From Chrysoperla carnea (Eukaryota; Arthropoda; Insecta; Neuroptera; Chrysopidae), in the NCBI RefSeq assembly GCF_905475395.1, contig NC_058339.1, forward strand, positions 89,724,520 through 89,788,519: a stretch of 64,000 bases of DNA. Reading direction: 5' to 3'. Below the pieces are notes generated by a model, which was not told where the DNA came from, did not search any database, and was given only the letters and a program-made list of their open reading frames with translations. Positions 879 to 62,164 of this stretch are shown here, piece after piece. Each line of letters begins with the position of its first letter. Within the stretch, counting starts at the first letter, position 1. A program made the translations under genes and the position numbers.

Positions 879-3871
879 ATGGATTTTAATAAATTTTTTT
901 GCTTAATTTTTAATATTGTGTTTATACCACATCTGATTGGTAAGTTTTGAAAATAATATTTCAAACAAAAAAATCGCGAATCTTCTTTGGAAGAACTCTA
1001 CTAGAAAAATCTTTTGGGGTATCAAATTGGTAGATTTTGACCAGATTGAAAAATAATCATAAAAATTGTTTGTCCGATGAAAAAAGTATATTTTTTACAC
1101 GGGTTGGACTTTTAAAAATGGTTTTTATTTAAAGGTGCAAATATTTATGGACAAGTAATGGAACCAATATCGAATTCCATAGACCGAAAATGGGACGTAA
1201 ATATGGAACATAAATACTTCAAGGGAAATAAACCAAACAAATACTCTGCCTACAACGGTGGAAGTAGCCGACCACTAATAGCGGGCGAGGGTGCTATAGA
1301 TGCTAAAACGATAGATTATCCTTATGTGGTAAAATATATATCCTATTTACTAATGTTTTTTTAGAGGGTGATTTGTTAAAAAGTTTCCACTCTTTCGAAA
1401 ACAGAAGAAATGAAAATATAATATTTATTTTAAACATTTTTTTGGAGCTAATTTTTTGGCAAAAATAATACCCCCTCGTATAAAAAAAATAGACAATTTA
1501 TTTTCATTACTCGTTTAAAATGAGCCGATACCCTATATGATACGATAAATATAATAGGAGATAATCCTGTTGTCGAATTGGTCATATTATTATTCATAAA
1601 AATGTAAAACTAGACTTAATACCATCACAAAATATGAAAATGAAACTAAAATTGATTAAAAAACGAAGATTGCATTCGAAGCCCATCTTCTTTTAGCAAA
1701 ACAAAGTTTTATATGAAATCTTTATAGCGATACTCACGTATGACGTCACTATTGTGGGTCTCTTTCTGTTTGTTTAATTAGGAATTTTAAATGTTCATAC
1801 CTTGCGTACTAGCACAGAATTTTTAAAACCAACTCATCTGAAGTGATAAAAAAAATTATGTCCGATCCCCTATTGAAGAAACTTTTAAAAAATTCACTTT
1901 GTATATAACACAAAATCAAATGAAATACTCGAAAAATTGGGACAATTGTCAGTAGAAATCCATTAAAGTTTAAAATTCCATTGGTTAATTTTTTCATTTT
2001 ATAACTCAACCCCCCCCCCCCTCAACTGACATGGAAGGGCGTTATAAGTTTAACGCGTTTGTGTATCTGCGCTTTTAACTGATGATCAATAAAAGGTTTT
2101 GAATATCAGGTTCAAGTGTTCCAACGCTCGATGGCTAGTAACCGCCGACAAGTATGGAGGTTTAGATGTACTGGAGCGATACTCGATCGTAAGGTGATAA
2201 TTGTTTCTGGATTTTGTATTGGAAACTCACCATATAAAATAAGCTTAGAAAGAGGAAGTAATTTTGCGATTCTTGCTGGGGAAGATTACCATGATCGCCC
2301 AAGGAGTGACCTGGATTCCAGATATAAAAGAGTAGAAAGTTTTACTATGCATCCTTTAAGCAAAATATTGAATGGAACTACTGGAATGGAATATGATATT
2401 GCTTTATTGAAGGTATAAAAAACTCCCACCTCGAATCCCCATTGGATACTTCTTTTCATTAAATGTGTTCATTAAATGCCGTTCTACAAACTGGGGAAAA
2501 AATGGGCTCTGGTTTCAGCTTGACTGTTTTTGTACATTCTAGTAGCGAAATTCAGACTATATTATCAAGAATACATTGTTTTTTAGCCTGTCTCAAATGG
2601 GACAGTCAAAATATGTCTTAAACTAATGGCCATTGTATGAAATCAAGTGGCAGTAAACTTTACAAAAGGCATTTCCTGAACATAAACTTCATTTCTAGAG
2701 AAATTTTCTTGTTTAAATTGGAGAGACTTTTTTGACACTGTCTAAGTCTACATACCAAGTTTCGACCCTGTAGCTCAATTTGGAGAAGATGTAGAGATGA
2801 GCAAAGCTTTAAAATCGTCGAAAAAAGTTGTTTTTCTATGGCAAATCCTCCCCAAATTTCTGAAACCAAGATTTTTCATGGTTTTTTAACCGCCGAACCA
2901 AAAACGGGGATGTTATAGATGTCTGTCTGTGGCATCGTGGCGCCTAAACAGATGAACAGATTTGGAGTTTTTTTTTTCGTTTAAGAGGTAATTTAATAGG
3001 GAGTGCTCTTAGCTATGTTTCAAGTACGTGGCTAGGGTTCCGTACCCAGAACAGCTAAAAAATAGATGATGATCTTCAAAATCGGTTTCGTTTGAAGAAA
3101 GCTCTAAGGAAAAATGTAATTTAATGGAGAGTATGTTTCAAGTGCGAGACTAGGGTTCCGTACTCGAAAAATTTCTCGAGGGTTATTAAAATTTTGAAAA
3201 TTCTCACTTGTTAAATCAACTTTCAGCTAAGTGAAGAACTAAATTTTGAAGAATCGGAAGGAAAAATTGGAAAAATTACAATTTGTAGAAGAGATGGAGA
3301 GTATTGGGCAAATGTATGGAATGAAGGGGTTCCTGGATTGGTGGTTGGATGGGGTTGGGTAAGTTTGAAATGTCTTTAGAAGGTGACGTCTTATATTACA
3401 ATCAAATTACTTAATTTCAAGAAAACTGGAAGGCGTTGCTGTGAAGTTGCTGACACACTAAAAGTAATGCATCAAGAAATAATAACAAATTATCAATGCC
3501 AAAAAAGACTTGATGAAAGAATAAAATTACATACGCCACCAAAAGTACCCCATTGTTTGATATTTTGTTCGGACGATTATAATGACGATAATAAGGCATA
3601 TCTGTGTAAAACGGACACTGGCGTATTGTATATAATTAATGGCACATTATATGGAATTGCAGCATGGTTTCAAGAAGAGTGTCCAGATTGGAATCTCAAG
3701 AATCCGAAGACAGATATGAGTCGATATGAGCAACCGACCCGTATTGTAATGTACAATAAACTTTCAAGTTTCGGCTTATATGATTGGATCATTGACACGA
3801 CAAAAAAACTTATGGATGGTGTACCAGTAGAGAATATTCAATTTGACATTCCTCGTATTGAATATGAATAA
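879..3871 (+). CDS. Secreted serine protease homolog (pseudoprotease), paralog 1, five exons
   Basis: Exons 879-939, 1135-1328, 2110-2412, 3227-3358 and 3422-3871 join in frame into 379 residues; all four introns are GT-AG, in phases 1,0,0,0. Residues 1-20 are a hydrophobic signal peptide. A chymotrypsin-fold domain follows the YPYV motif near residue 82. Cys105 and Cys121 match the Cys42-Cys58 pair; VVGWGW matches the VSGWG strand; HCLIFC and a later YLCKTDTG match the Cys182 and Cys191 regions. The triad is broken: His57 is Phe120 and Ser195 is Thr296, while Asp181 stands for Asp102. The usual R-IVGG activation site reads PLIAGE, so normal zymogen cleavage is not expected. An N-x-T sequon lies in NGTLYG. 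AATAAA follows 150 bases after the stop. In known families such proteins bind or act as cofactors; the partner here is unknown. The C-terminal tail is about 25 residues longer than in the paralogs. Confidence 0.85.
1575..1870 (+). repeat. Dispersed repeat F4 inside intron 2 of paralog 1
   Basis: Matches 31935-32285 on the same strand and 23515-23720 and 42603-42930 on the opposite strand. Shared landmarks are 'aaaatgtaaaactagactt', 'gattaaaaaacgaag', 'ttttagc', a TGACGTCA octamer (1741-1748) and 'gaagtgataaaaaaa'. The paralogs lack it at the matching intron, so it was probably inserted after gene duplication. Confidence 0.55.
2881..3212 (+). repeat. Dispersed repeat F2 in intron 3 of paralog 1
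   Basis: Carries the family landmarks 'ggcatcgtggcgcctaaac', 'gatgaacagattt', two 'agggttccgtac' phrases and 'atgatcttcaaaatcgg'. It ends only about 14 bases before the splice acceptor of exon 4, so it supplies much of the polypyrimidine and branch region of this intron. Other copies occur at 5524-5830, 19252-19490, 20735-21025, 30275-30562, 31272-31562 and 52097-52363. Confidence 0.6.
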
Positions 3872-4020
3872 TTTACTTAAAATATGTACAGAGTGGGTCA
3901 TAAGCAGAATTACAATTCTATTGCTATTAAGTCAATTGATAATTTACCATTTTGGTTATGACATTGGTGGCTTAAAATCAAATTAATTTTAATGTGCAAT
4001 TTAAATGTATGAATATCAGG

Positions 4021-4026
4021 AATAAA
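4021..4026 (+). other. Polyadenylation signal AATAAA, paralog 1
   Basis: First canonical AATAAA after the stop codon, 150 bases downstream, in an AT-rich 3' UTR. Cleavage would fall some 10-30 bases later. Confidence 0.45.
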
Positions 4027-4182
4027 TTGAATTATAGCCTTTCTTACATTATAACTTGAAATATATTATTATTTATCAATTTTTAATCACATTTCCGTAG
4101 AACAATAAAGATATTTTTACAAAAATACAAACAATAATACATGAATATTTACCAATGTTTTATTATAACATAATACACTCGT

Positions 4183-4310
4183 TTTTATACCATGTATATA
4201 TGAAATAGACATAGTATATTAAGTTTAGTCCCAAGTTTGTAACGCTTAAAAATAATGATGCAAGGAAAAAAAATTTGTCATAGGTGTTCATAAAATCAGC
4301 GTACCTGAAG
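4183..4310 (+). repeat. Truncated F1 repeat end
   Basis: Begins 'ataccatgtatatatgaaa' and continues with 'taagtttagtcccaagtttg' as in the complete copy at 52749. It stops after 'ggtgttcataaaatca', so only the first ~125 bases are kept. It lies between paralogs 1 and 2. Confidence 0.55.
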
Positions 4311-4919
4311 AGGCTTTTTATTGACTAGGGAATTTTTCCAATTAAACTACAATTACCTAAAAAATGATAACCTGGTACAAGGGACAAAATAATTGCAAAA
4401 TTTATTTGTGTGTACCTATAATCTGTATCAATGGTACAATGTGGTATTTGATCCAAAATACAAGACGGTAAATCAAACTTTATCTTCTCGAAAATTAATG
4501 CTGTGTTTAAAAGTGAAATATGGAATAAAAAAATTAGAATTTTGGAGGATGAAGACAGGAGAGACATTGTGATAAACGCTGAGTAAGTTAGGATTAGTAG
4601 TTAAAGTCACGTTGACACGAGATTAATTTAGGTGGGGTGTGATTGGTAGGTTTCTGGTAAAACTCAGAACTTCGATAATAATCGAGTACATACTTCGATC
4701 GTCTTAATGAACAAACAAATTTGTTTCATCAGAAAGATACTGGTCTGCTCTTTCCTTTATGTAAAACAAATTTTTTAGTGATATTCGTAGAAAATTTAAA
4801 AAGAAGCCACACCAATTTGAAGTGAGGGTAAAGCTTTGAGTTTGTTGCTATGTTGAAATTAATCATTTTTTGCTTAAATATTTAAACAATTTTACATAGC
4901 AATTATTTGAAAATAATTT

Positions 4920-5052
4920 AAGTTAATTAATAGCTTTGACTAATTTATGGGCTTAATTAGCATAAAAACAACTGTACACAATTTTTTAGGCTTGAAATAA
5001 CATTAATATCAAAAATTATTTGCATTTGCAAACTGCTTTTTTAACTTGAAAT
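4920..5052 (+). promoter_or_regulatory. Conserved upstream region of SPH paralog 2
   Basis: Contains block 1 (TAATTAATAGCTTTGACTAA from 4924, then an AATTTAT and AATTAGCATAAA tail) and block 2 (AATTATTTGCATTTGCAAA, about 5014-5034). Just upstream is AATAATTTAA, also found before paralog 3. Conservation above the diverged flanks suggests shared regulation; no perfect TATA box stands out. Confidence 0.55.
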
Positions 5053-8000
5053 ATGAATTTTAAACGATTTTTATTTTTTATTTTCGATATTGTTTTCATT
5101 TCAAGACTGGGCAGTAAGTTTTCTAAATAATTCAATATTTTTTATTCAAAAAAACAGTAAAATTCAGTCCTAAGGTAGATTAAAAACATCGTTGTTGAGA
5201 AGCTTTAAAAATTAATTATTTAAGCTAATTTTGAATATAATTTTTTGTTGTTGAAAAAACGTGTTCAACGGACCACTATTACTCACTTTACCAATGTAAC
5301 CCGTTTAAAAACTCTCTTTAAACTTCTTGAACACGCTGTAAACATTTCACTTCGATATCTCTTTTCGTTTTTGAGTTATCGTGATGACGTTTATTTGTAA
5401 AATCAATATTTCTAGCCGTTATACGAACTGGGAATTAAATTTAATATAGGTATTCTAATATACTTCATATGTGCGCGGAATTTTTTTCGGGGGTTTAAAA
5501 ACATTTGTTTTTAAACCCCCGAATAAATAGAGGGATGTTTTAATATTAACGTGCCTTTATATGTATCTATGGCATCGTAGATCCTAAGCGGAAGAATCGA
5601 TTTTGATTTTTTTTAATGCTTGTTTGATCGAGAGTGTTTTTAGCTGTGTTAAGTGTGATTCCGTACCTACCAGTGTCAGGTTCAAGATTCCGTACCCGAC
5701 AACATTTGAAAACAGGCGATGATCTTCAAACAGCGAAGTCGTTTTTCTTGAAACATAGCTTGGGACACCCTCTCGATCAAACTACCTTTAAAAAACTAGG
5801 TTCATCCATTTAGGACAGTCGCCACAAACGGATCGATCAGAATTGTTTTTATCTCGATTCATTATAATTTTTAATTTAATAAAATTATTTATTTAGTGTT
5901 TTTTACTTTAAGGTGCAAATTTTTATAGTAATGTCTCCATTCCAAAACTAAATTTTATATCCCGATCAAACTATCAGTACGAAAAAAATTACGGACGATA
6001 TAACGATCCACTAATGATGGGTGGTCAACATGTCCATATCGAAAATTATCCATATGTGGTAGGTCTTGTTACTTTTTATATTTGCTTATGGTTTATATCT
6101 AGAGATGTATGTGTATTGAAAATTCAAAATTATTAAAATTCTCTCACAAAGTTTTCAAAAAGATTCATTTTTTATAGAAATTTTAATTTTTTTTAGATTT
6201 TTATATTGGGAAAAATAAACCTAGACATATATAATTTTCTGAAGAATTTTACAGGGAAAAATTCTTAAAAGAAAATTTCCTTACTTTTTTCAATCCAATT
6301 TTCGATTATCTAGACAGGACAGCGTAAAAATGCGTTATAATGAAAATTATCTTATACTACGTAAAAGACGTAGTGATTCCGAGAAAATAATGATTTTCTT
6401 ACTATGGTAGCAAATTAATATTTCCTTGAAATTTTTTAATCCATTAGCACTCCGTAAACCGTTTGGAAATCTTTAGTCTTGTGATGAGAGATTTGATCAC
6501 TTGTTCTGAATTTGAATGAGTTATTAATTTTAGAACAAAAATCAAAATGATGATAATTATATTCATTAATTATCTATACTGTAAATATTTATTGAATTAA
6601 TTCTTTGCATATTAAAAATTACGATTTTATGTAAAAAATAAATATGCTTCACCTATAAGTTACGCACCAGTAAGAATACTTTCAATAAAAATTGAAATAT
6701 AGATAAATAATAAAAGAGATAATTTAAATTATTTAATAATTAATAATAACCAACTGATTATCTATGAGATATGTATCAACTTTCAGGTTCAGATGTTTAA
6801 ACGCAGTTTTGGTTATGATTGGCAACTAACGTGGGATTTTAAATGCACTGGAGTTATACTCGAACGTAAGGTAATAATTGTTTCCGGATTATGCCTGCAG
6901 TCCAACGATAGGGATCAATTCGCGAAGGATATCGTGGAATATGCTATTCTTCCTGGAGAGACTGTTTGCGAAAAAAGTCGAAAAATTTTGGATTCGAGTT
7001 ATGTAGGCGTAGAAACCATTTATTGGCATCCTTTAGCCATTAGAAGTCCACAAAGTGGAGAAGACATGGAATATCATATCGCTTTATTGAAGGTAATATA
7101 TTTAAATGAATATAAGGGCGGCTAATTTAAGGACACAAAGTATCCTAAAACTACTGAACTATGAAAACTGGTCATGGTGTGTTTGTGTGAATTTACAGAT
7201 ACCATGAGTAATTACGCTTATTTTGAGAAAACACAAAATAACAAACTGATATAGAACAAAAAATACGTAGCTACAATTTAAAAAAAAAAACTTGACCCAT
7301 CTTTGATAAAAAAAAAAGAATTTTTATTCCCCATAAAAATGAACGGATAGATTCGTCTTTTTTGATTTTCCATTACAAATACAAGGATGAGTTACTAAAG
7401 CCTATCCGTTCGGGTAGAACAGCTTTACTTTGGGTTATGTTTCCAATTGGTTTGTTTTTATCATTTAACACATTTTAAAAATTAATTTTCAGCTGAAAGA
7501 AGATTTAGATTTTGAGGGATCAAATGGAAAAATAGGTAAAATAAAAATTTGCGTTAGGGATGTGGCATATTTGGCTGAAATTTGGGAGTATGTTACAGGA
7601 GAGGTTGTAGGATGGGGCTGGGTAAGTTTTATTGTTTCACATAACCAGATAGTACTAGATGACCCATGTGAAATTTCCGCACGTTAAATAGTCACCACCA
7701 AGTATGCTCGTAGTTAAAATGTGATGTTAGCTTTTCGCTATCATTCATCTATGTGCTCCCATATTCTTGAAACGTAGTAAACTAGATTAAATTTGACCAC
7801 AAATTTGAAAAATATGATTTGAATTTAGTACAATTACATACTTTATTTACCAAAATTGTATATAATTTCGATGCAATAGAGCAAAAAAAAAAAAATTTTT
7901 TTGGATTTTGATGGCGTCATTAAGTTCAAAAAATTGATGTTTTTTGATAACACAGACAAATTTGATCAGTGATGTTAGTTTTTCGATAATATTTATCTAT

Positions 8001-9017
8001 GAGCATATAACCGGAACCAGAATCCGACAATCTTGAAACCTATAAAGGCTTGCTTAAATTTGACCACGAATTCAAGTCAAGGTCAAGGATATGACCCAAA
8101 TTTAGTACAATTACATACTTTTTTTTATCAAAATTGGACATAATTTGGATGTGATAGACCAAAATTTAATTTTTTTTTGATTTTGATGACGTCATCAAGT
8201 TAAAAAAATCGATTTTTTAGATAACACAGGCAAATTTGATCAGATCTTAATGTAATTTTTTTTCGAACCCACTAACTTCATGTGATACTTTTTGTCTGTG
8301 ATGTTAGTTTCTCACCACTATTCATCTACCAGGTCCTTCAATCTTGAAACCTTTCAAGACTTGCTTAAATTTGAAAATTATTACCCAAATTTAATAGAAT
8401 TATATATTTTGATATAATTTGGATGTGATAAAGCCAAATTAAATTTTTGGATTTTGATGACGTCATTAAGTTCAAAAAATCAACAGTATGTGGTTGACCA
8501 GGACTAACCAAGAAAGAGAAAAACGAATACATTACTTTTTATAGAAGTAACTAACTGAAAAATTTAATTCCACCAGCTATGAGAAAGACGTATGCCTTAT
8601 CTACCCGAATATTTTTTTCTTTTCAAGACAACTGAAAAAACATGCTGTGGCATTTCAGACCAATTATTAGCAACACACCAAGATGTTATAACAAATTATG
8701 AATGTCGTCGAAGATTAGACCAACGATTAACTGGCTCTTCTCTCAGACAGCAGATTATACCCCATTGTACAGTTTTTTGTACGGATGATACCAAAATCAC
8801 AATGGATGATAGAGCATACCTGTGTAAAACGGACACAGGCGTCCCATTTATTGTGAATAACACATTATACGGTATTGCAACATGGTTTATGGCAGAATGC
8901 TCAGTATTTCCAGACCAAAAAAAGACTCGAATCGTTATGTACAATCGACTGTCATGTTATGGACTATATAGTTGGATAACGGAAACAACCATGAAAATTA
9001 CAAATAAATTATTATAA
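5053..9017 (+). CDS. Secreted serine protease homolog, paralog 2, all three triad residues lost
   Basis: Exons 5053-5113, 5913-6058, 6787-7092, 7493-7621 and 8628-9017 give 343 residues with the same phases (1,0,0,0) as its neighbours. Residues 1-20 form a signal peptide. The protease-like domain keeps YPYV, the Cys42-Cys58 pair, VVGWGW, a CC motif at the start of exon 5, and YLCKTDTG. Triad positions are Leu104 for His57, His166 for Asp102 (EYHIALLK against EYDIALLK in paralog 1) and Thr284 for Ser195. The activation site reads PLMMGG with no arginine before it. Exon 2 is 48 bases shorter than in paralog 1, within the variable N-terminal linker. The NNTLYG sequon is kept. Intron 4 is about 1 kb and holds a three-copy tandem repeat. 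The reading frame is intact across every exon, which argues against a pseudogene. Confidence 0.85.
5325..5480 (-). repeat. Partial F1 repeat in intron 1 of paralog 2
   Basis: Landmarks 'gatatctcttttcgttttt', 'gagttatcgtg', 'gggaattaaatttaatata' and 'acttcatatgtg' match the reverse-oriented F1 copies, with an internal gap. It abuts the hairpin and F2 copy that follow. Confidence 0.45.
5486..5523. repeat. Perfect 18-bp inverted repeat at F2 edge
   Basis: Arms 5486-5503 and 5506-5523 are exact reverse complements (left arm starts TTCGGGGGTTT) with a 2-base gap. The arm sequence equals the terminal text of F2 repeats, so this is probably two F2 ends joined head to head rather than a transcription terminator. 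Confidence 0.7.
5524..5830 (+). repeat. Rearranged F2 repeat in intron 1 of paralog 2
   Basis: Contains 'ggcatcgtagatcctaa', 'gattccgtacc' and 'gatgatcttcaaa', then inverted text including a hindmost 'aggttcatccatttagga'. The mixed orientation suggests two overlapping insertions or an internal inversion. Confidence 0.5.
7722..8485. repeat. Three-copy tandem repeat in intron 4 of paralog 2
   Basis: Units start at about 7722, 7970 and 8299 (spacing about 250-330 bases). Each runs through TGATGTTAG, 'ttcatctat'-like text, 'cttgaaac', 'tttagtacaattacata', 'tttggatgtgatag'-like text and 'gatgacgtcat'. TGACGTCA is intact in the second and third units (8187, 8458) and mutated in the first. The neighbouring paralogs do not have it. 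Confidence 0.6.
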
Positions 9018-9120
9018 ATTATTTAGAAATTTTCGTCGTGAAGAAATTGGATCTTTTGTCCTCTGAGTAGCTCGATCCTTTGAATTTTTTTCAAGAAATG
9101 TAATCATAATTATTTCAAAC

Positions 9121-9126
9121 AATAAA
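9121..9126 (+). other. Polyadenylation signal AATAAA, paralog 2
   Basis: AATAAA 104 bases after the stop codon of paralog 2, in an AT-rich 3' UTR. Confidence 0.45.
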
Positions 9127-9592
9127 ATTGTAATTTGTTTTCGTGACGTGCGTTCATCACTGGAAAAATGAAAACCAATTATGTAGATAATTAAATTACT
9201 GGAAAAATTGTATTTATAAAGTTTTTCAAGAAATGTAATGATCTATATATTTTGAAAAAATTAACCAATGGCTGGTTTTTCCGATGCACGTTCATCATTA
9301 GAAAACAATTACTGCGAAAAGTAATTTTTTTTATTATTTTCTTTTAATCCTGATACCGGAAGAATATAGTGTCCTTGAAAAAAACACCTAGAAATACTTT
9401 TATGGTTTACTTATAACTATCCAAACAAATTTGTTCCTATGCTTCTTATCCTTACTACCTTTTTTTAGAACACACAAAAAAGAGACATTTTTGGTTGCAC
9501 TAGAAAGCTTAAAATGGATTTTGGAAGATAATTGGATGCTAAATGAAAAGTATTTTGTCTGCAGGCAGCAAATAATCGAAAATTGTATATTA

Positions 9593-9905
9593 TACAGGGT
9601 AGGTCATTTTAATCTGTAATAGCTAATAGTTCGTTTTATAGCTAACCAATCAAAAAATAACTAAAACAAAAGTTGCCGAATTTGATGGGGGGCATCATGT
9701 CCTGCCATCAGATTGGACCAAGTTCTTCGGGTTGCTTCAATAGCCAGTTTTGATTCTAAACGGTAAGAGATAGAATACCACTTTTTATTAGAAAGTTGAC
9801 CCACATAAAAAAACTAACATTTTTCAGCTAAACCATTTTTTCGAAAATCGTCAGCTTTCGGAGGTAATATGACTTAAAATTATGTTATAATGCAATTAAT
9901 CGAAA
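9593..9905 (+). repeat. Dispersed repeat F6, partial copy
   Basis: Starts TACAGGGTAGG and shares 'aatcaaaaaataactaaaac', 'aaagttg', 'ggggggcatca', 'cagattggacc' and 'attagaaagttga' with 34151-34800 and 63230-63450. Only the left half is present. It lies between paralogs 2 and 3. Confidence 0.55.
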
Positions 9906-10011
9906 TAATCATAGAAAAATATATAAACAAGTAGTACGATAAAGATTCGAATTGCTTTTCTGTTTCAATATTATACAATTATGTATGCCATTTATTTGAA
10001 GATAATTTAAA

Positions 10012-10153
10012 GTAATTAATAACCTTGACTAATTTATTTATGTTCTAAATTAGAATTGATCCAAACGAATAAAATTTTGTTGATATAATGCGTTACCTAT
10101 TAAAACAATTACTTGTGTTTGTATTTTTTTTTTTTTAGAAATAACTTTTCAAA
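10012..10153 (+). promoter_or_regulatory. Conserved upstream region of SPH paralog 3
   Basis: Block 1 reads TAATTAATAACCTTGACTAA from 10013, then AATTTATTTATG and AAATTAG. Block 2 (about 10107-10122) is AATTACTTGTGTTTGTA. A 13-base T run separates block 2 from the start codon, unlike the other two genes. Confidence 0.55.
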
Positions 10154-10156
10154 ATG

Positions 10157-12938
10157 ATGGATTTCAATCCATTTCTATTTTTAATGCTTTATATTGTGTT
10201 GGTTACAAAGACGGTTGGCAAGTACTCAAAATAATTCAATCATTCATTACAAATTTGGGACTAAAATTAGCATACCTTGATCTATATTTCGTATAGACAG
10301 GGTATAAAATAGGAGAGATTATATCTTTAATGCAACTGATGAATATTTTTTAAGTCTTAAGTAATCATTAGGTTGTCAATCCTAGTAGCTCAGTTGGTTA
10401 ACGCGTTGGTTCGTACGCGGTATGCCTAGGGTATAGCGGGTTCCCTTCGTTACAATAAATAATTAATTTAATTAATATTTGTGATGGGCTGATGAAGTGC
10501 ATCGTATATCCATGAAGGAGGTATGCTCAGTCTCTCGAAATAAATGAGAGGGTAGCCAATATAACCTAACCTAACCATAATTAGATACAAGCGCTAGTCT
10601 TATCATTACGGAGCCCGATGTGAAAGTCATTCATCTTCCAAAGTTATTTATTGCCCAATACGTACTTATGACTCAAGAAATTTTACAGCGATTGATGTAT
10701 ACTTAAATAAAGCGCCAATACATCATCGGCGAATACGTGAAAATGCCTCTTAGCATCTAAGTACCTACATCACATATACCACACAGAAAAAATTAAGGCT
10801 GAAAATTGCTATTAATTATATGAACTGTTTTATTTAAGGGAATAATTATTATGGTCAAGTGTTGGATCCAATAATGAATTCCATATCCCGATCAGATCGT
10901 GGATTTCGTTCCAAGTGGTCTTATGATGACATACAGCAATCGAATCCTTACAAACAATGGATACAAAATAACGATCCACTAATAATGGATGGAGCGCCTG
11001 CAAACCTTAGAAATTTTCCATATGCGGTAAAAATATATCTAATTTGATTGTACTTTTAGCTAGGGATGTTCGAAAATTTGCTATTTTTGAATAATTTCCA
11101 TTGAATAGAATAATGCCACTATATTGACAATAATTTAAGTTTTTTCGTATAATTCGAATTTTTTCGATTAAATTATTATAGTTCCGTAATTTCAAATACT
11201 AGGTTCAGGTGTTCGATGAAAATAGTGCTATCGATCACAAAAAATACTGGCGTTTTAAATGTACCGGAGCAATACTTGAGACAAAAGCGATCTTAGTTGC
11301 TGGATTTTGTATGGACCTTGTAGATCTTAATCGAAGATATGCAATAGTTGCTGGAGAAGAAATATTCCAGAAAAATATAATAAAACCGCTGCGAAAATTT
11401 ATAATAGTCGAAAAAACGATTTTTCATCCTTTAAGAAGGGAAAACAAACATGGATATGATGTTGCCATATTGAAGGTATAATACAGTTTTATTGCCGCTG
11501 TTTTTAGGATCAAAGATTAAAAAAGTATATATAATTTTTCCATGTGTTACAAAATAAATTTTAAAACCTTTGCAACATTGCCACTTGCTGCTTTGAGTAT
11601 ATCTATCGTTAAATTGCTCTGTTCAAAATAATTTCGAATATGATCAGCAAATTAGGGATGGAATGAATGGATTTACAACTAGTAAAACATGTTTTAAGCT
11701 TATATATCGTGATATATTCACCTGAAGAGAAAAGTTATTTGTATTTTGTTTATTGCATACTTACGAAATATATCACGATGTTCCATCTTTATATTACAGC
11801 TCCCCAAAAAATAATTTGTCGTGTTCTTCTCTTAAGAAAAATAATTTATATGGAACCCTTATATACGTGTACTACACACACTTGCAGGTCAATGTTTTAT
11901 ACATTACGCCACACTTTTGAATACAGTTCTGAAACTTGCATATATTTTCTTGGAACTGAATTTTTTCGATGGAATCGGATATTTTGAGTTTGTGATGTTC
12001 CAAAATAGTCCTCAAGCAAACTTAAGTATTCGAAATTAATTGTATGCTTTGGCCGAAAAAATCATTTTCCGGAAAATTTTCACTTTTTTTTTTGAAAAGT
12101 TAAGAGCTTTTGCGTAAGGCATGAAACATATATTTCAATGATTCGGTAGGAACAGTAAAAGCTAGATCTCATGGCGTTTAACATGTATTTAATTTTAATT
12201 TTTAGCTATCAGAGGAATTAACGTTTAATGATGTTACAAACAAAACTATAATTTGCCCTAGAGATGTGGAATATTGGGCACAAATGTGGGGAAAAGTTCC
12301 AGGGCAAGTTGTGGGATGGGGATGGGTAAGTAAAATTGTTTTGTTTGTAAGTAAAATAGAGTTTCAACCCGACTTGTGCCATCTTACTTTGTGGTACTTT
12401 GTTTGTTATCTCAAAGTTCGATGGTCAATTAATAGGCTATCATCAAGATTGATCAGCTAGGGACGTAACTATTTTATTTCTATTCGTTCGTATTCGCTTA
12501 GTTTACACGGTTCCAGAATTCTTAACATATATTCACCATAAACATAAGATTTTTATATTTTAGAAAAATGGCTCAAAATGCTGTGAGGTTAGAGACGAAC
12601 TACAAGTGATGTATCATGACGTTATCTCAAATCACGAATGTCAAATTCGACTAAATGATAGATTACCAAAAGAAGGTCGAGTTAAAATACCGCATTGTAC
12701 GGTGTTTTGTACTGATGATTCATCTGAGGGATATAATAGGGCATATCTGTGTAAATCTGATACTGGCGTATTGTTTGTTGTTAATGAGACGTTATATGGT
12801 ATTGCTACATGGTTTAAACCGGAATGTCTGCAGAACGGTGAGACGACTCGGATTGTTATGTACGCACGGCTGTCGATATTTGGAATTTATACTTGGATTC
12901 ATGAAACTGTAAAAAATATTACAAATAATTTAATATAG
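10157..12938 (+). CDS. Secreted serine protease homolog, paralog 3, GC-AG first intron
   Basis: Exons 10157-10217, 10839-11026, 11203-11475, 12206-12325 and 12564-12938 give 338 residues. I chose the second of two adjacent ATGs (10154 and 10157) because MDFN and the 61-base first exon then match paralogs 1 and 2. The first donor is GCAAGT instead of GTAAGT, a consistent GC-AG intron. Triad positions are Phe118 for His57, Asp169 for Asp102 and Thr281 for Ser195 (CKSDTG). The activation site reads DPLIMDG with no arginine. Disulfide cysteines, VVGWGW and the NETLYG sequon are kept. Intron 1 holds an F1 fragment and a SINE. The open frame and conserved cysteines point to a working non-catalytic secreted protein; its ligand cannot be told from sequence. 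Confidence 0.85.
10240..10308 (-). repeat. F1 repeat end fragment
   Basis: A short stretch with 'tacaaatttgggactaaaat', 'ataccttgat' and 'cagggtataaaa', matching the terminal ~70 bases of F1 in reverse orientation. Located in intron 1 of paralog 3. Confidence 0.45.
10376..10576 (+). mobile_element. tRNA-derived SINE, internally shortened copy
   Basis: The head has an A-box-like TAGCTCAGTTGGTTAACGCG and a B-box-like GCGGGTTCCCTTCG, so it comes from a tRNA. The body shares 'ataattaatttaattaat', 'gatgggctg', 'gtgcat', 'atgaaggaggt' and the end 'agccaatataacctaac' with the minus-strand copy at 28391-28678. About 75 bases of the body are missing here. It sits in intron 1 of paralog 3. Confidence 0.75.
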
Positions 12939-12974
12939 TCTCTTATTTTAATTAAAGAGAATTGAAAAAAATAC

Positions 12975-13045
12975 ACTCGAACCAGGACTCGAACCCGGAC
13001 TTCTTGGATTCATGTCAAGCGCCCTACCAATTAGGCTATTCGAGT
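12975..13045 (-). tRNA. tRNA-like sequence, anticodon position TGA, probable pseudogene
   Basis: On the minus strand 71 bases fold as a cloverleaf. The acceptor stem is a perfect 7-bp ACTCGAA/TTCGAGT pair; D stem GCCT/GGGC; anticodon stem with one A-C mismatch; T arm CCGGG-TTCGAGT-CCTGG. The anticodon loop CATGAAT puts TGA at the anticodon, which would be serine, but the long variable arm of tRNA-Ser is absent. Hence it is more likely a tRNA pseudogene or an orphan SINE head than a working tRNA. It starts 37 bases after the stop of paralog 3. Confidence 0.5.
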
Positions 13046-18229: not shown

Positions 18230-19250
18230 GAGTATGGAACCCTAAAAAATGTATCTCTATGTGTTCGTGTCTATTTAGAATATATTTCTATCTATCCTTT
18301 TACTAAGATAGATCTTTTTTTTGTTTGGTGTTTCCAAGAAGGAATATTTTAGTCTCAAATATTTTATTTTATAGATTTTTATTTGAAAGTGATTTAATTT
18401 ATTTTTAATTTGATATATTACTTATTTTCTTCGTCTTGTTTTTATGTGTATTTCTGAGTTAACAAATAATCTACATAGTTTGAATTTATTGGGCGTGACA
18501 CCTGGCGGTAGTTTAAAATAATTTGAATGAATTTAGTTAAATATTAAAACTTTCAAAATATAATATATCAATAATTTTATTTATAATCAATAATTTTAGA
18601 ACAATTTAACTCCTAATTAATATAAATTATGTTATTTGAATAGATTAAAATATATATTCTTATCACATATGTAATCAAAAAGTGTTTATCTATTTTAATA
18701 TGTGTATTCTAGAACACGTAGAAGGTTCTAGAATATGGGTACACGTGTATGAGTGTCTGTCTGGTTCTATTTATTTTGGATTTAGTCTATTCTATGTGTG
18801 TGTGTTGTATAAAGTAAATGAAATTAAATTGAACGGAAAATATATTCAAATATCAACCGAATAATATACCTACAAAACTATATAAATAAATACAAGTTGG
18901 GAAACCCATAAAAATTCAAAGGGTGTCCGTTATTATTTTAAATAAAGTTTTAACCAAGAACGTCATAAACTTTCTTCGTTTTGCATTGAAAGTTGTTCTT
19001 TGGTGTAGTTAGATAACCACTCCATCACAAACAGGTCACTTGAGTTACCTTAACCTCGTCCCCACCTGTTTTGTAAACCTCAATTTACCGTGTCATTCAA
19101 TTTACTAATATTTGAGTTGACTTTGTTCTTTTGAATTATTGTTTTGAATTACCTAATTATTTTACCATTTAACTTTTCAAAATAAATTGAGCCAGGTTTA
19201 TTTGACCATTCATTTCCATAGTAATTATTTATATGTTAAAATTATACGTC
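18230..19250. other. AT-rich intergenic stretch
   Basis: No gene, RNA or clear repeat recognised apart from AT-rich low-complexity DNA. Confidence 0.4.
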
Positions 19251-20080: not shown

Positions 20081-20622
20081 CCATACTAGAATATTATAAA
20101 TGTGAAAGTAACTCTGTCTGTCTGTCTGTTACTCTTTCACGCCTAAACGGCTGAACGGATTTTGATGAAATTTGGTATGGTGATAGATGATAACCTAGAA
20201 ATGGTCATAGGCTATAAATAATCACGCCATCGTTCTTAGGGGGTAGGCAATAGGCAGATAACTAGGTTGAGTTAGTGATTTTTAGTCGTTTTTGTTGGGA
20301 CTTTTGCTCTTTCACGTCTAAACGGCTGAACAGATTTTGATGAAATTTAGTAAGGTAATAGATGGTTACCTAAAAACGGATATAAGATCAAAATGATCAC
20401 GTCATCGTACTTAGGGGGTAGGAAGTAGGCAGAAAACTGAATTGAGCTAGTGATTTTTTTATGGTGTTTGCTGGGAGTTTTGCTCTATCATGCCTAAACG
20501 GCTGAACGGATTTTGATGAAATTTAGTTAGGTGATAGACAGTAACCTAGAAAAGGATATGGAATATGGGGGGAGGGGTGAAAGTGGGAATGTTGCCCAGC
20601 AAAGCGGGTAGTTCACAGCTAG
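20081..20622 (+). mobile_element. Helitron-like non-autonomous element with 175-bp internal repeats
   Basis: Three internal units begin at 20135, 20310 and 20486. Each has 'cctaaacggctgaac', 'gattttgatgaaatttag'-type text, a 'gatag' and 'aacctag' stretch, and the first two also 'cttagggggtagg'. The 3' end reads 'cagcaaagcgggtag' then CTAGT, the CTRR-T ending typical of Helitrons. Similar ends occur at 49445, 59641 and 62157. No helicase gene is present. Confidence 0.5.
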
Positions 20623-25107: not shown

Positions 25108-27332
25108 CCTTAGAAAAATTCGAAAAAATCGTAAACAATTATTTGTTTTGGAATTTGATGAAACTCAGTTTATAAGGTGATTTTGACGTAAGAAATTCAA
25201 AAATCGAGTTTATTTGGCGATTGGGCTAGTAATTTTCGAAAAAAACGATATTTCGGATCGATTTCCGGTATTATCTCGAGAATTATTCGCCCAATCGTTA
25301 AATGAAACCGATTTTTGTATTTTTTGGGTCAAAATTACCTTATATACAGAGTTTTATCGAAATTGGAGACGATAAATTTGTATCGATTTTTTGCAATTTT
25401 TTCAAGGGGTACCCCTTAGAAAAATTCGAAAAAATCGTAAACAATTATTTGTTTTGGAATTTGATGAAACTCAGTTTATAAGGTGATTTTGACGTAAGAA
25501 ATTCAAAAATCGAGTTTATTTGGCGATTGGGCTAGTAATTTTCGAAAAAAACGATATTTCGGATCGATTTCCGGTATTATCTCGAGAATTATTCGCCCAA
25601 TCGTTAAATGAAACCGATTTTTGTATTTTTTGGGTCAAAATTACCTTATATACAGAGTTTTATCGAAATTGGAGACGATAAATTTGTATAGATTTTTTGC
25701 AATTTTTTCAAGGGGTACCACTTAGAAAAATTCGAAAAAATCGTAAACAATTATTTGTTTTGGAATTTGATGAAACTCAGTTTATAAGGTGATTTTGACC
25801 TAAGAAATTCAAAAATCGAGTTTATTTGGCGATTGGCCTAGTAATTTTCGAAAAAAAACGATATTTCGGATCGATTTCCGGTATTATCTCGAGAATTATT
25901 CGCCCAATCGTTAAATGAAACCGATTTTTGTATTTTTTGGGTCAAAATTACCTTATATACAGAGTTTTATCGAAATTGGAGACGATAAATTTGTATCGAT
26001 TTTTTGCAATTTTTTCAAGGGGTACCCCTTAGAAAAATTCGAAAAAATCGTAAACAATTATTTGTTTTGGAATTTGATGAAACTCAGTTTATAAGGTGAT
26101 TTTGACGTAAGAAATTCAAAAATCGAGTTTATTTGGCGATTGGGCTAGTAATTTTCGAAAAAAAACGATATTTCGGATCGATTTCCGGTATTATCTCGAG
26201 AATTATTCGCCCAATCGTTAAATGAAACCGATTTTTGTATTTTTTGGGTCAAAATTACCTTATATACAGAGTTTTATCGAAATTGGAGACGATAAATTTG
26301 TATCGATTTTTTGCAATTTTTTCAAGGGGTACCCCTTAGAAAAATTCGAAAAAATCGTAAACAATTATTTGTTTTGGAATTTGATGAAACTCAGTTTATA
26401 AGGTGATTTTGACCTAAGAAATTCAAAAATCGAGTTTATTTGGCGATTGGCCTAGTAATTTTCGAAAAAAACGATATTTCGGATCGATTTCCGGTATTAT
26501 CTCGAGAATTATTCGCCCAATCGTTAAATGAAACCGATTTTTGTATTTTTTGGGTCAAAATTACCTTATATACAGAGTTTTATCGAAATTGGAGACGATA
26601 AATTTGTATAGATTTTTTGCAATTTTTTCAAGGGGTACCACTTAGAAAAATTCGAAAAAATCGTAAACAATTATTTGTTTTGGAATTTGATGAAACTCAG
26701 TTTATAAGGTGATTTTGACCTAAGAAATTCAAAAATCGAGTTTATTTGGCGATTGGCCTAGTAATTTTCGAAAAAAACGATATTTCGGATCGATTTCCGG
26801 TATTATCTCGAGAATTATTCGCCCAATCGTTAAATGAAACCGATTTTTGTATTTTTTGGGTCAAAATTACCTTATATACAGAGTTTTATCGAAATTGGAG
26901 ACGATAAATTTGTATCGATTTTTTGCAATTTTTTCAAGGGGTACCCCTTAGAAAAATTCGAAAAAATCGTAAACAATTATTTGTTTTGGAATTTGATGAA
27001 ACTCAGTTTATAAGGTGATTTTGACCCAAGAAATTCAAAAATCGAGTTTATTTGGCGATTGGCCGAGTAATTTTCGAAAAAAACGATATTTCGGATCGAT
27101 TTCCGGTATTATCTCGAGAATTATTCGCCCAATCGTTAAATGAAACCGATTTTTGTATTTTTTGGGTCAAAATTACCTTATATACAGAGTTTTATCGAAA
27201 TTGGAGACGATAAATTTGTATCGATTTTTTGCAATTTTTTCAAGGGTGCCCCTTAAAAAATCGTAAAAAATTATTTGGCCGAGTAATTTTCGAAAAAAAA
27301 CGATATTTCGGATCGATTTCCAATCGATTTAC
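25108..27332. repeat. Satellite array of seven ~306-bp units plus a truncated eighth
   Basis: Unit starts (at TAGAAAAATTCG) are 25111, 25417, 25723, 26030, 26337, 26643 and 26949, giving spacings of 306, 306, 307, 307, 306 and 306. Units are nearly identical and differ at diagnostic sites: GACGTAAG, GACCTAAG or GACCCAAG; GGGCTAG, GGCCTAG or GGCCGAG; TATCGAT or TATAGAT. Each unit contains two diverged inverted arms of about 110 bases. The eighth unit (27254-27332) has lost most of its length. No transcript or protein is suggested. Confidence 0.9.
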
Positions 27333-46759: not shown

Positions 46760-47090
46760 GTCCCTTGGCAAAATTGGCAAAAACGACAAAATGTTTTTGT
46801 CTCCAATTTCTTTAAAACTATGTACATAAGGTAATTTTGACCAAAAATTTACAAAAACCGCATTCATTTACAAATTTGACGAGTAGTTTCTGAGATATCG
46901 CATCAAATTGGATTGCATTGAAATTTCAGAAAAAACTCGCTCAAACGAAAAATGAACATGATTTTTGGGTCAAAATACTTTATAAATTGAGTTTTATCAA
47001 ATTCCAAAGCGAAAGCTTTGTGTGATTTTTTCGATATTTTTCAAAGGGAACATTCCCTTAAAAAAATTGGCAAAAAACGGCAAAACTTTT
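46760..47090. repeat. Diverged single unit related to the 306-bp satellite
   Basis: Has the satellite order with many changes: 'ttgtctccaatttc', 'aaggtaattttgacc', 'gagtagtttctgagatatcg', 'tttttgggtcaaaata', 'ttgagttttatcaaattcc' and 'tcgatatttttcaaaggg'. It too is two inverted arms around a centre near 46910. A lone copy 20 kb away suggests the array grew from a dispersed palindromic element. Confidence 0.6.
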
Positions 47091-47398: not shown

Positions 47399-48560
47399 AT
47401 ACAAGAAACTTTTATTGAAATTACAAATTACAATACGAAACGTCATATTTAATTGTTGCATTTGTTTTTTGGCTGTACCACCCAACTAGCAAAGAAATCA
47501 TAACGTGCGATAAAGATCATAGTTCCAAAAAAAAGCCAATTAATTATAACAGCATTCAATAAATTTTGTGTAAAACTTGTTGACACGTTTTTTAGTGTAT
47601 TTTATTATATTTCAAGCCAATTTATTTTGCGCACCGCATTTACTATAAAGTGTTCCAAACTCATACTCGCTTAAAAAATTGAACACATATAATATTCGAT
47701 AATAGATAAACACATAACAAGCAAACGAAGGTAAACGATGCTTTATATTGAACGTGGCATTTGGATGGCGTTAAAAAAAGAGAATGGTTTACATTTTTAG
47801 AGCTCTATTAGCTAAAGCTTCATCAACTCTTGTTAGCTAAACATTAATGTGTGTTCAGTTTGGAAACATTCAATCACTACGTACTCTACATATATAATAA
47901 AAATATTATTAAACATTATTCGTTGTGTGCGTAGTCATGGTAGGGACAATAAAATCGATGCCAGCGCTTTAAGTGAAAAATTTTGGAGTTAAAGGGGGCT
48001 GTTATGACTAATTTGCAATTCTTTACATATTAATGTAATAGAAATGTCAAATTAAAATTATTGAAAAACACGAATTAATTAAACTTAATGCATTAAAAAT
48101 TGTGAAAATAAGAAATCAAATTGAACAAATATTATTTTTCAAATGTAAATTATCATAATTATTTATTTAAATTTGTGAGACAAGAATATTAAATTTTAAA
48201 CGTAAGTCTTAAATGCAATCCATACAATTATATATGCAACCATACAATTCTATAATTAAAGTAGTGTATCGTTACCATGGAAACGAAACTCACGCACGGA
48301 GCGAATAGGTACCCATACATTTGAACTAAGATAGTTGCGATTGAAGGTTTTAAATATCTTAAAAATGTACATTTGATCATGAATTTACAAAAAAATCGCG
48401 TTAATCCAATAAAATCAATAGTCTGAGGAATTATTTTCCAGTAAGCTGGAAATTGTGGAAATACTTTTTTTAATCCTAAATGCGTGTAATCCGAGTTTGC
48501 GTAATCTCTGGAAGTGTGCAGAACTTTTAGGAATAACCGCGAAATTTTTGCTCTTTTATA

Positions 48561-49115
48561 TCGTACCCAGGACGTCAAAAGTGAGGTTCGTAACTGAGCA
48601 ACAAAGCTCAATTTGATCTTGGATTCCATCTTGTAAACCGTAAAAAATAGAACAAAAGTTTAACGTTAAAAAAAGTTCCATATAAAAAAATAAACAACTT
48701 TTGTTTGAAACATTTTTTTGTAAATATCACTGTTTATCCGTGAGGGCACAAAATAGGTTAGCAAATTATAGTTTGTATTATATGGGAATATTAGTTTTGC
48801 GTGTGTGACATCACAGTCGTGTTATACAGGCTCTCTTTTTTAAGTTGGCATACGCTTGAAGATTGATAAATAAATTTCATAGAGGAAAATGTTTCAAACG
48901 AAAAATGTTAGTTTCAAAGGCACACATCTTATAAAACCTCACTCTGATTCATACCTGACAAACATTTGATAAGCGCTCTAAATTAGAAAGTTGTTCTCTA
49001 TAAATACTCAAACATTTTCTGTTTGAAACATTTTGTTTGTAAACCGAATAGTTTAAAACTGTCTATACTTGGCATTTCAATAATTAACTCATTCGATTGT
49101 TCGGTTTCACTTGTT
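48561..49115 (+). repeat. Dispersed repeat F1, 5' truncated
   Basis: 'tcgtacccaggacgtcaaaa', 'ccatcttgtaaaccgt', 'aacaaaagttt', 'tttgtttgaaacatttttt', 'cgtgagggca' and an end 'tcaataattaactcattcg' match F1. The middle (48840-49030) is rearranged. Confidence 0.55.
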
Positions 49116-49444
49116 CCTGTTAAAAATCATATATCCTGTATAATAACATTTTTAGTATGGCTGTATTGTTATGAGTTTATGTATATATTACGTACAATCT
49201 ATTTAACACAGGATCAGTGATCAGCGATCACATTCACATCTATAGGTACCTTTTTATTCTATTTGAACTGTTAGCTTGTTGTCGATACTCAATAAACATA
49301 TCGATAACTCATTTTCAAATAATGCTATATACGATTTGGTTGAGTATATACCGAATATTGACGTTTAAACGACTTTCCGTTAAGAATGTCCAAAATTTAA
49401 ACTTAAACAAAACTTCGTATACAATTTTTTTTGTTTTAGTGAGT

Positions 49445-50049
49445 ACTAGCTGTTAAACCCGCTTCGCTGGGTTGTTTTTGCACATTTAAATATCAAAATT
49501 GTTAAATGAAAGACTTTTTTTTTAATTCTCTCTGTGTGTACGGAACAGTAAGATTTTTTTGGCCGATCCCAATATTATGTCTACACTCTCTGTGTGTACG
49601 GAAAAGTAAGGGAAAGATCGATAGAAACCCATGGAACATTCCAGAATATTCGAGAAAGTTCTAGAAAATTCGATAGAAATCCATAGAACATTCCAGAATG
49701 TTCGAGAAAATTCGATAGAAATCCATAGAACATTCCAGAATGTTCGAGAAAATTCTAGAAAATTCGACAGAAACCCATGGAACATTCCAGATTGTTCGAG
49801 AAAGTTTGATAAAATTCAATAAAAATCCATACAACATTGTACTATTGACAGTGGGGCCTATTGTACTATTAGAACTATTTTTTTAATCTATTTTCTATGA
49901 ATTCCTAGATCATTTTTAATTCCACCCCCACCAAACTCCCTTATTCACAATGGGAGCCTAAGGGCTACCCAATGACATAATCCCCTACCGAAGGTCAATG
50001 GTTAGTTTTAGGGAAAATCAAACAAACACTCTCTTTTTATATATATAGA
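49445..50049 (-). mobile_element. Helitron-like non-autonomous element carrying heat-shock elements
   Basis: The plus-strand left end is ACTAGCTGTTAAACCCGCTT followed by CGCTGGG; reversed, this is the AAGCGGG...CTAGT terminus also seen at 20622, 59641 and 62157. The other end is 'tttttatatatatagat' near 50049. Inside are two copies of 'ctctctgtgtgtacgga' (49529, 49587) and the tandem heat-shock array. There is no RepHel gene, so it is non-autonomous. Confidence 0.5.
49633..49808. promoter_or_regulatory. Tandem array of heat-shock elements (HSF sites)
   Basis: Contiguous alternating 5-base units nGAAn and nTTCn occur in four blocks: eight perfect units at 49633-49672, six at 49685-49714, eight at 49727-49766, and a decayed block of six (four perfect) at 49779-49808. 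Three such units make a full HSF trimer site, so the first three blocks are stronger than typical natural promoters. Blocks are separated by 12-base spacers of the type ATAGAAATCCAT. HSF binding is established for this motif; activity here is inferred. Confidence 0.75.
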
Positions 50050-50570
50050 TATTTCACATTATTTTGTGAGATATACATAAAAAACTAGCTAAAGCCGACA
50101 ATTATCCCAATTTTAATTACATTAAGTTGCGCACATAAGCTGTGATGGCCATTTAACTGATAGGATATAGTATTCGTTCTCATATACAATTTATAAAACT
50201 TTTATAATTTAAGTATAAATTTCGGACACTCTTAATGGAAAACTTTTACGTTTTATACAAGTACGATTTTTATATTGTCAATGTTTTTATTATTTTTTAT
50301 TATGGTATCTATGTGTGTTTATTCTCAGTTTTTGTGCACCATTTTTCCCGTTGATTATATTTTCAATTTTTCGATTCGAACCCATATACATTCGTACATG
50401 ATGAAGGTACCAATTTTTTATTTGATTTTTATCGCGTTATACAAAATGGTAAATAAAAATCAAAATGAAGCATGACAATTGACTTTAGCTAATTATAATT
50501 ATTACACTAGTTTAAAAAATGGGAAACTTTATTCTGAAAGCATTCATCAACACAAAAATTTGAAATAATT

Positions 50571-50787: not shown

Positions 50788-50858
50788 GCATCGTTGGTTC
50801 AGTGGTAGAATGCTCGCCTGCCACGCGGGCAGCCCGGGTTCGATTCCCGGACGATGAA
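50788..50858 (+). tRNA. tRNA-Gly (anticodon GCC)
   Basis: 71 bases fold as a standard cloverleaf: D arm GTTC-AGTGGTA-GAAT, anticodon stem CTCGC/GCGGG with loop CTGCCAC (anticodon at 50820-50822), T arm CCGGG-TTCGATT-CCCGG. A box and B box are canonical. The sequence equals the usual insect tRNA-Gly(GCC) except at the last acceptor base: position 72 is A instead of C, so G1 faces A72. It is followed by an eight-T terminator. It is probably transcribed; whether the mismatch harms 5' processing or charging cannot be told. Confidence 0.9.
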
Positions 50859-50879: not shown

Positions 50880-52090
50880 TCCAATCTTTGGAGAAACTTA
50901 TGGTCAGCGCTAAAGGCGGAATCATTTTATCAATGGGCGGAATTTCCAATAATAATATGTGGGTTCTTCGATAGATAGAGGGAGTGGCTTGTTCGACCAT
51001 GAGACGTACCCAACTCTTGACTATCCAGCCCGGTTTTCTGAATCAGATAGCGTAGTTTATCTTCCTCTGTAAGATTATTTAAGTTGGAAAAAAATTTCTT
51101 GTTCTTAAATTTTGTTTGTTTTTGTTCTGTTCTTAAAAGTTGAATATTATAACTACCTGATAATTGAAAGTTTATAAAAAAAGTAAACTTAATAGTTTTT
51201 CATTTCTCGAATGTGGGACATAAAATATCATAGGTTGTGATTTTCGTAATTTAAAATAAAAAATAAATGTCCCATATTTAGTATAAAATGAAAGCAAACT
51301 TCGAACAGGCTGAAAAAATAATAAAGAGACTGTAAAAAATTCGATAATCGTTCATTTTACTTTACAAATACTCCTCTTTTTCTCTTCTAAAATTTTGAAA
51401 AACAAAATTTTCATTCTTTGTTTTCCACGATTCGAACTGTTATTACCTTCTAAGGCCAACTTCAGTTACAAAAAGAAGAGTTAAAAATATGCAAGCATCT
51501 TAGGCCTCATTGTCATGCATCTGTAAAGTATGTGCAATTTTCTGTTTGGTAGCAAAGTATTGAATAATAAATTAGTTAATTAAGAGTGCGAGTTAAAGTA
51601 TGGTGACAATATATCTTTTGTCTGCCCCCTTAAAACTCTTCCTTGGGAGAAAAAACCATTGTCAACTAACCCTGAATTACCATATTATTATAACACACAT
51701 AATAAAAAACAAAGCCCTTATACACACATTCTCGACTATATATTTTTGAAAGGTTTTTTGAACGGGGTACTCACTACTACGTTATTTAACGAAGAGCGTT
51801 ACACATTGTGTTCATGCATTGAAACGTTTTTCAATGTTTTTACTTCCTTGTACAAGGTGAAAGAAGTATTAAAATAAAATACGTACACATGTATATCTTG
51901 GATAACCAAAACTCATTATTATCCGTAGAATGTGGAAATTTTGTATCTTAGAGCAGGCGCTAGATAGAGTTGACTGTGAAAAATAGAGGACACAGAAACA
52001 GTCATTTGTCAATTTTTTCGCCAAACAAAGCTACCCGAGGTTTTAAGGGTAATTTTACCTCAAAACGGTTGTTGTTGTTTTTTCTTAAAT
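50880..52090. other. Intergenic stretch without recognised gene
   Basis: No gene or clear repeat seen. The first 190 bases after the tRNA are less AT-rich than the rest but show no long frame. Confidence 0.35.
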
Positions 52091-59640: not shown

Positions 59641-60125
59641 ACTATCTGTGAACTACCCGCTTTGCTGGGCAACATCCCCACTTGCACTCCTCCCTCCACA
59701 TTTCCTTGCGTGGGATAACAGTTTTGTAATGTACACGTCATGCTCTTTTATTTGATACCCCACTTAGGTATATTTGTAAATATTCGATAATTCCTTCCCA
59801 CTTTCTCGCTACACCTCTCTACCCTCCGAAGGTTAAAAGTAGATAAAAACAATAGATTTTTGAAACTGGTTGTATATCGTGTCAATATTTTAGCTTAATC
59901 GATGCACAACTTTTTTAGTTTTTTAAGCATATCCCTTTCAACCCCTATTTCAACCCCTTACTCTACTATAATATGGATGTATTATACATAAAAACCTTCC
60001 TCTTGAATCACTCTATCTATTAAAAAAACCGCATCAAAATCCGTTGCGTAGTTTCAAAGATTTAAGCGTACATAGGGACATAGGGACAGAAAAAGCGACT
60101 TTGTTTTATATAATATGTAGTGATT
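59641..60125 (-). mobile_element. Helitron-like non-autonomous element
   Basis: The left end has CTGTGAACTACCCGCTTTGC followed by TGGGCAAC, the inverse of the 3' end at 20590-20622. The right part has 'accgcatcaaaatccgttgc' and 'tagtttcaaagatttaagcg', then 'catagggaca' and 'gactttgttttatataat', text widespread in non-autonomous insect repeats. No coding frame. Confidence 0.5.
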
Positions 60126-61854: not shown

Positions 61855-62164
61855 TTCTATATAAATGTGAAAGCAAGGTTGTCTATTTGTTTGTTTGTTT
61901 GTTTGTTTGTTTGTTTGTTTGTGTGTTACGCTTTCAAACAAAAACTATACTGAATGGATTTGAAATACAATTTGTGGCCATCTGTGCTGATATACTTAAT
62001 AAATTAAGACAATTTTACATTTAAAAAGAAATTGAAAATGGTACATATACATTTTACCTGTGTAAAACAATTCCTATCCCCATTTCCAGTGTTATGGAAG
62101 GGAGATAAGAAGGGGTTGTATTTTCTTTTAGACTGAACGAAGCGAGTGGGTATCAAGCTAGTAT
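61855..62164 (+). mobile_element. Helitron-like element with (TTTG)n tract
   Basis: Begins 'ataaatgtgaaagcaaggtt' like the start of the 20-kb element, then a (TTTG)n run at 61885-61922, 'acgctttcaaacaaaaact' and 'tgaatggattt'. It ends 'gaacgaagcgagtgggtatc' followed by AAGCTAGT, matching the other CTAGT ends. Confidence 0.5.

Follow-up and report, generated by a model that had tools for sequence, protein, structure and literature searches.

Here, we found in the 64-kb window (the whole stretch of 64,000 nucleotides of Chrysoperla carnea DNA that was analysed) a Helitron frame which encloses a dense array of heat-shock elements (HSEs) with a regular repeat geometry. We consider it probable that this anatomy is that of a non-autonomous rolling-circle element of the Helitron type with an HSE minisatellite in its interior, and that the array is able to bind HSF. 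A measurable effect of the element on genes appears rather unlikely. Judged from its sequence, the element is a good candidate for a case in which the phenomenon described in Caenorhabditis arose independently in an insect.

The element and its structural parts, apart from the HSE array, are the following:

49446–50049, minus strand: non-autonomous Helitron-like element of 604 bp, with its 5' end at 50049 (TCTATATATATAAAAAGAG...) and its 3' end at 49446 (...CAGCTAG)
49446–49449, minus strand: CTAG-3' terminus of the CTRR type, adjoining a host T, as read in the sequence
49456–49473, minus strand: 3' subterminal hairpin of 7 bp with one bulge and a GAA loop, ending 10 nt short of the 3' end
49528–49610: second, smaller direct repeat of the element, with 25-nt copies at 49528 and 49586 that are 96% identical

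Helitrons are recognised by a 5' TC, a 3' CTRR, a 3' hairpin and insertion between A and T without a target duplication (PMC3789558, PMC6544945). Read on the minus strand, the element opens with TCTATATATATAAA at 50049, thus with the 5' TC, and closes with CTAG at 49446; an A at 50050 precedes the TC and a T at 49445 follows the CTAG. These junctions are like the A-TC...CTAG-T junctions of Helraiser (PMC4778049). The first-pass annotation had given the span as 49445–50049, of which the end at 50049 stands, while 49445 turned out to lie just outside the element, as a base of the AT target, so that the exact ends are 49446 and 50049. As to a target duplication, no direct repeat of 4–20 bp was found within 2 bp of either end of the element. 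Folded as DNA, the last 55 nt of the element adopt this hairpin at minimum energy. Its energy is unexceptional, since an equally stable fold is reached by 34 of 200 shuffled versions of these 55 nt; the hairpin therefore supports a Helitron by its position, with a stem that stops 10 nt short of the 3' end, and not by its energy. The single stop-to-stop frame of at least 90 aa that lies inside the element has no Pfam match, and we call the element non-autonomous. Its putative transposon status is read from its structure, with one copy seen in the 64-kb window: a second copy of the interior was not found there by blastn (best outside match E 0.11), nor was a second HSE-bearing copy.

The interior of the element is dominated by a tandem array, which is laid out as follows:

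49618–49838: entire tandem array (Tandem Repeats Finder and layout)
49633–49672: HSE block 1, 8 perfect nGAAn/nTTCn units (unit scan and layout)
49685–49714: HSE block 2, 6 perfect nGAAn/nTTCn units (unit scan and layout)
49727–49766: HSE block 3, 8 perfect nGAAn/nTTCn units (unit scan and layout)
49779–49838: decayed fourth HSE block, with 3 of 24 core positions altered in its first eight units and worse decay further on

A contiguous-unit scan recovered all 22 perfect units that had been claimed for this array in blocks of 8, 6 and 8; their cores alternate between exact GAA and exact TTC. The decayed fourth block, equally part of that claim, is present from 49779. An HSE consists of at least three alternating 5-bp nGAAn units in phase, and the array provides runs of 8, 6 and 8 such units. 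Tandem Repeats Finder resolved 49618–49838 into units of 10, 42, 52 and 94 bp. Each repeat of 52 (or 42) bp consists of a 12-bp linker, A(T/C)AGAAA(T/C)CCAT, and four (or three) 10-mers nGAAnnTTCn, so that HSE units account for 40 (or 30) bp of it. Two other identities of the array were considered. STAT-type sites have the spacing TTC-3-GAA; within the element, TTC-2-GAA occurs nine times and TTC-4-GAA three times, the latter at the linkers, while the single TTC-3-GAA lies outside the array. We therefore rejected STAT sites on spacing, which fits HSF. A coding sequence was rejected as well, because the 97-aa stop-to-stop frame across the array has no Pfam match and a unit length of 52 bp is not divisible by three.

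Three other candidate elements were found in the window:

about 20090–20622, plus strand: candidate element, AAGCGGG (20599)...CTAGT
about 59642–60122, minus strand: candidate element, AAGCGGG (59665)...ATAGT
about 61856–62161, plus strand: candidate element, AAGCGAG...CTAGT

The 5' ends of these three were placed by eye. All of them had been said to share an AAGCGGG...CTAGT end with the HSE element, which holds for the candidate at 20090–20622; one of the remaining two ends in ATAGT and the other carries AAGCGAG. In an alignment of the 3' ends, in which the row of the second other candidate stands without its last bases, the final ~25 nt of the HSE element resemble those of another candidate element. 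By blastn against the window, the HSE element has no match to the three candidates, and none of them contains a run of at least three HSE units. Near its start, the candidate at 20090–20622 (plus strand) has a CTGT repeat, in which respect it is similar to Hel-2, which is described with a CTGT repeat (PMC4344730); it also holds ~2.4 copies of a 175-bp repeat (20132–20559). Both flanks of the candidate at 59642–60122 (minus strand) carry TCTATGAATATACCAAAT, a perfect direct repeat of 18 bp, which is not predicted by the Helitron definition and looks as if a target duplication had been made or the insertion had gone into a tandem duplicate.

How unusual is the HSE array? Eight alternating units have an expectation by independent chance of ~1.6e-9 per 64 kb, from which we infer that the array surely grew by duplication. 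First-order Markov simulation of 100 sequences that match the dinucleotide make-up of the window gave a longest run of 3 units in 60 sequences, of fewer than 3 in 39 and of 4 in one. The six-unit pattern occurs five times in the 64-kb window, all within the array, whereas 100 shuffles contained it 0.00 times on average. In a mismatch-tolerant 8-unit scan, the full score of 24 out of 24 core positions was reached at two places, both of them in the array; the next best score was 19, which was also the top score across 10 simulated windows. Elsewhere in the 64-kb window, the runs of at least 3 units are those at 18720 (3 units), 36667 (4 units) and 60971 (3 units).

Does growth by duplication call for a role of HSF? 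It is possible, though we find it the lesser prospect, that the element is a Helitron whose central minisatellite is an ordinary one, built from a near-palindromic 10-bp unit that spells HSEs by chance, HSF having had no part in its evolution. Central tandem arrays are known in rolling-circle elements, namely in Crassostrea Helentrons (PMC7492417) and, as internal arrays, in insect Hel-2 (PMC4344730), and another candidate element of the window likewise bears repeats inside, the 175-bp repeat given above. About 0.33% of random 10-bp units of this composition are HSE-type in some rotation, and therefore some among many minisatellites would be of this type. The strong self-complementarity of the array (fold z -4.15) also suits such an origin. 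Against it speaks that in blocks 1–3 all four spacer columns of the 10-bp unit vary and all six core columns are invariant, which neutral drift would not favour, though the blocks were chosen by their cores. When 15 phase-anchored 10-mers are compared, those of the decayed block among them, 3 of 90 core positions and 22 of 60 spacer positions deviate from the commonest base; these figures are not independent of each other, the 10-mers being related by duplication and descent, and since blocks 1–3 were in addition delimited by their intact cores, the contrast is not an independent test. The comparison between blocks favours the ordinary minisatellite, in that core conservation was not significant either between blocks 1–3 (0 of 24 core columns versus 4 of 28 other columns altered, Fisher P 0.11) or with block 4 included (3 of 24 versus 7 of 28, P 0.31). 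That the HSE motif was kept in the array beyond the effect of duplication is thus suggestive only.

Runs of HSE units in sequences of other origin bear on the same question. The 8-unit pattern matches 3 contigs in a viral collection of 2.9 million contigs, with perfect runs of 8, 8 and 10 units and a G+C of 0.55–0.62; two of these contigs share the same sequence. One of the viral contigs (L002, G+C 0.62) contains ten perfect alternating nGAAn/nTTCn units at 4003–4052. The 5-unit pattern matches 3 viral contigs and 21 prokaryote contigs, and across the 27 viral and prokaryote loci the longest run per locus ranges from 5 to 10 units. We treated all 27 as unrelated to the element, of which no sign was seen at them; the surrounding sequence was inspected for L001–L003, and the other 24 loci were judged on their run and G+C. 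Because viral contigs hold runs of 8–10 units, long runs alone do not prove a role of HSF, and the occurrence of such runs in three unrelated contigs counts in favour of an ordinary minisatellite. Element-specific patterns had no match in the viral contigs, and the whole element had no blastn match in plasmids or phages; the collections consist of viruses, phages, plasmids and prokaryotes and have no bearing on copy number in an animal.

It is improbable that the array is a free-standing minisatellite outside any transposon and that its Helitron ends are coincidental. The lack of a second element copy in the window, where the interior matches nothing else, would agree with this reading, as would the shortness of the element ends and the weakness of the hairpin. 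However, TC, CTAG, the A/T junctions and the 3' hairpin are all correctly placed, and the final ~25 nt are like those of another candidate element. The promoters of hsp genes hold few HSE units, as opposed to the 22 found here, and Pfam identified no coding remnant in the element, which makes it highly improbable that the array stems from a captured heat-shock gene promoter brought into a Helitron by read-through. Capture of flanking DNA by Helitrons is on record (PMC4778049) and would allow for such an origin.

We thus return to a Helitron-type element with an HSF-binding array and compare it with known systems. The precedent that the first-pass annotation had cited, the spread of HSF-1 binding elements by Caenorhabditis Helitrons, is real and was correctly described: HSE-laden Helitrons are bound by HSF-1 and enriched near heat-induced genes, belong to the families Helitron1_CE, HelitronY1_CE, Y1A, Y4 and Helitron2_CE, and amount in C. 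elegans to 953 HSE-containing copies (PMC6927752). Set side by side by description, the nematode elements and the insect element are both of the Helitron type with dense, tandem and overlapping HSEs. In contrast, the nematode elements are multicopy and HSF-1-bound, whereas the insect element is known from its sequence as one copy in the 64-kb window. The same paper states that HSE enrichment in Helitrons is limited to Caenorhabditis among the UCSC genomes with annotated Helitrons, and that high-density HSE clusters were not detected over the other species examined (PMC6927752). We counted HSE sites with the motif given in its Methods, NGAANNTTCNNGAAN. With overlap, 16 of the 20 sites of the window lie in the element, and without overlap 10 of 14; relative to the published cluster mark of more than 10 per 1-kb bin, the element is above it with overlap (16) and just short of it without (10). 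The motif printed in the Results of that paper, NGAANNTCCNNGGAN, occurs nowhere in the 64-kb window. It is probably a misprint, since the Methods give the canonical NGAANNTTCNNGAAN, and for this reason we dropped the idea that the published cross-species negative was an artefact of the motif.

Among insects, the element shares TC, CTRR, an AT target and a 3' hairpin with Hel-2 (PMC4344730) and with silkworm families (PMC3789558), and like them it is short, has no target duplication and carries no protein; the 3' end of Hel-2 is likewise CTAG. The description of Hel-2 gives a (CTGT)n repeat, not HSEs, and reports the family from 24 Lepidoptera, a few species of other insect orders, insect viruses and plants (PMC4344730). 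The term 'heat shock' does not occur in the main texts of PMC3789558, PMC6544945 or PMC4344730, and in the open-access literature, among the matches listed, we recognised no case of an insect HSE-bearing Helitron. Helitrons that spread regulatory sites in insects are not new in themselves, because the ISY Helitron of Drosophila miranda spread sites to which a regulatory complex binds and rewired the response of a whole chromosome (PMC7168160). The ISY sites, however, are those of the MSL dosage-compensation complex and not of HSF, and the effect of ISY was assayed (PMC7168160), whereas the HSE element is a finding in sequence. Cg_HINE of Crassostrea is, like the HSE element, a rolling-circle element with a central tandem array, but it is a Helentron and not a canonical Helitron, and its abstract names no transcription-factor motif (PMC7492417). 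ONSEN of Arabidopsis resembles the link proposed here in that a transposon is coupled to a heat-shock transcription factor; unlike the HSE element, it is a Ty1/copia-like retrotransposon of a plant, and its transposition was observed (PMC9032817).

What surrounds the element? Pfam gave no match for the tested ORFs that are nearest to the element (48228–48659 and 51584–51877), abut it (49175–49453) or lie inside it. Among the ten window ORFs searched, five had a match at E 0.1 or better, all at 2–13 kb, with one trypsin match over the curated cut-off (E 7.6e-05) and two trypsin and three DUF1986 matches under it; against the PDB, one trypsin/DUF1986-type exon had a single weak match (E 0.009). 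The stretch 2086–12938 (plus strand) contains three successive pairs of similar exons, some of them matching trypsin or DUF1986, and by their look these are tandem serine-protease homologues. A tRNA-Ser (TGA) gene lies at 12974–13045 (minus strand), and a tRNA-Gly (GCC) at 50788–50858 (plus strand) starts 739 bp past the 5' end of the element. At 25108–27271, a satellite with a 306-bp unit is present in 7.1 copies with 98% matches; one lone stretch related to it, at a level of about 72%, lies at 46762–47077.

How could such an array have arisen and act? Most likely, a near-palindromic 10-bp unit gave rise to a founding stretch of ~40 bp of alternating nGAAn/nTTCn, which would then have been duplicated as 42- and 52-bp blocks. 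Trimeric HSF binds HSE arrays cooperatively. Under heat or proteotoxic stress, it may thus occupy the array of the element in this manner, and bound HSF could draw transcription to the element or its vicinity. By analogy with Caenorhabditis, an autonomous partner could benefit from this, or genes close by could become responsive. That HSF binds the element, that the element is transcribed under stress and that it rewires genes is what we infer.

In summary, a Helitron-like element with 22 perfect HSE units in its interior probably has the capacity to bind HSF. We put forward, more tentatively, that a family of insect Helitrons came by HSF-binding arrays independently, multiplied them and is spreading them across its genome. 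If this is true, heat-shock coupling would be a recurrent strategy of Helitrons and not a peculiarity of Caenorhabditis. A multicopy insect family, if confirmed, would show that a transposon has become coupled to the heat-shock response by convergence. It would also provide a second system for asking who benefits from such arrays: the transposon, the host or neither of them.
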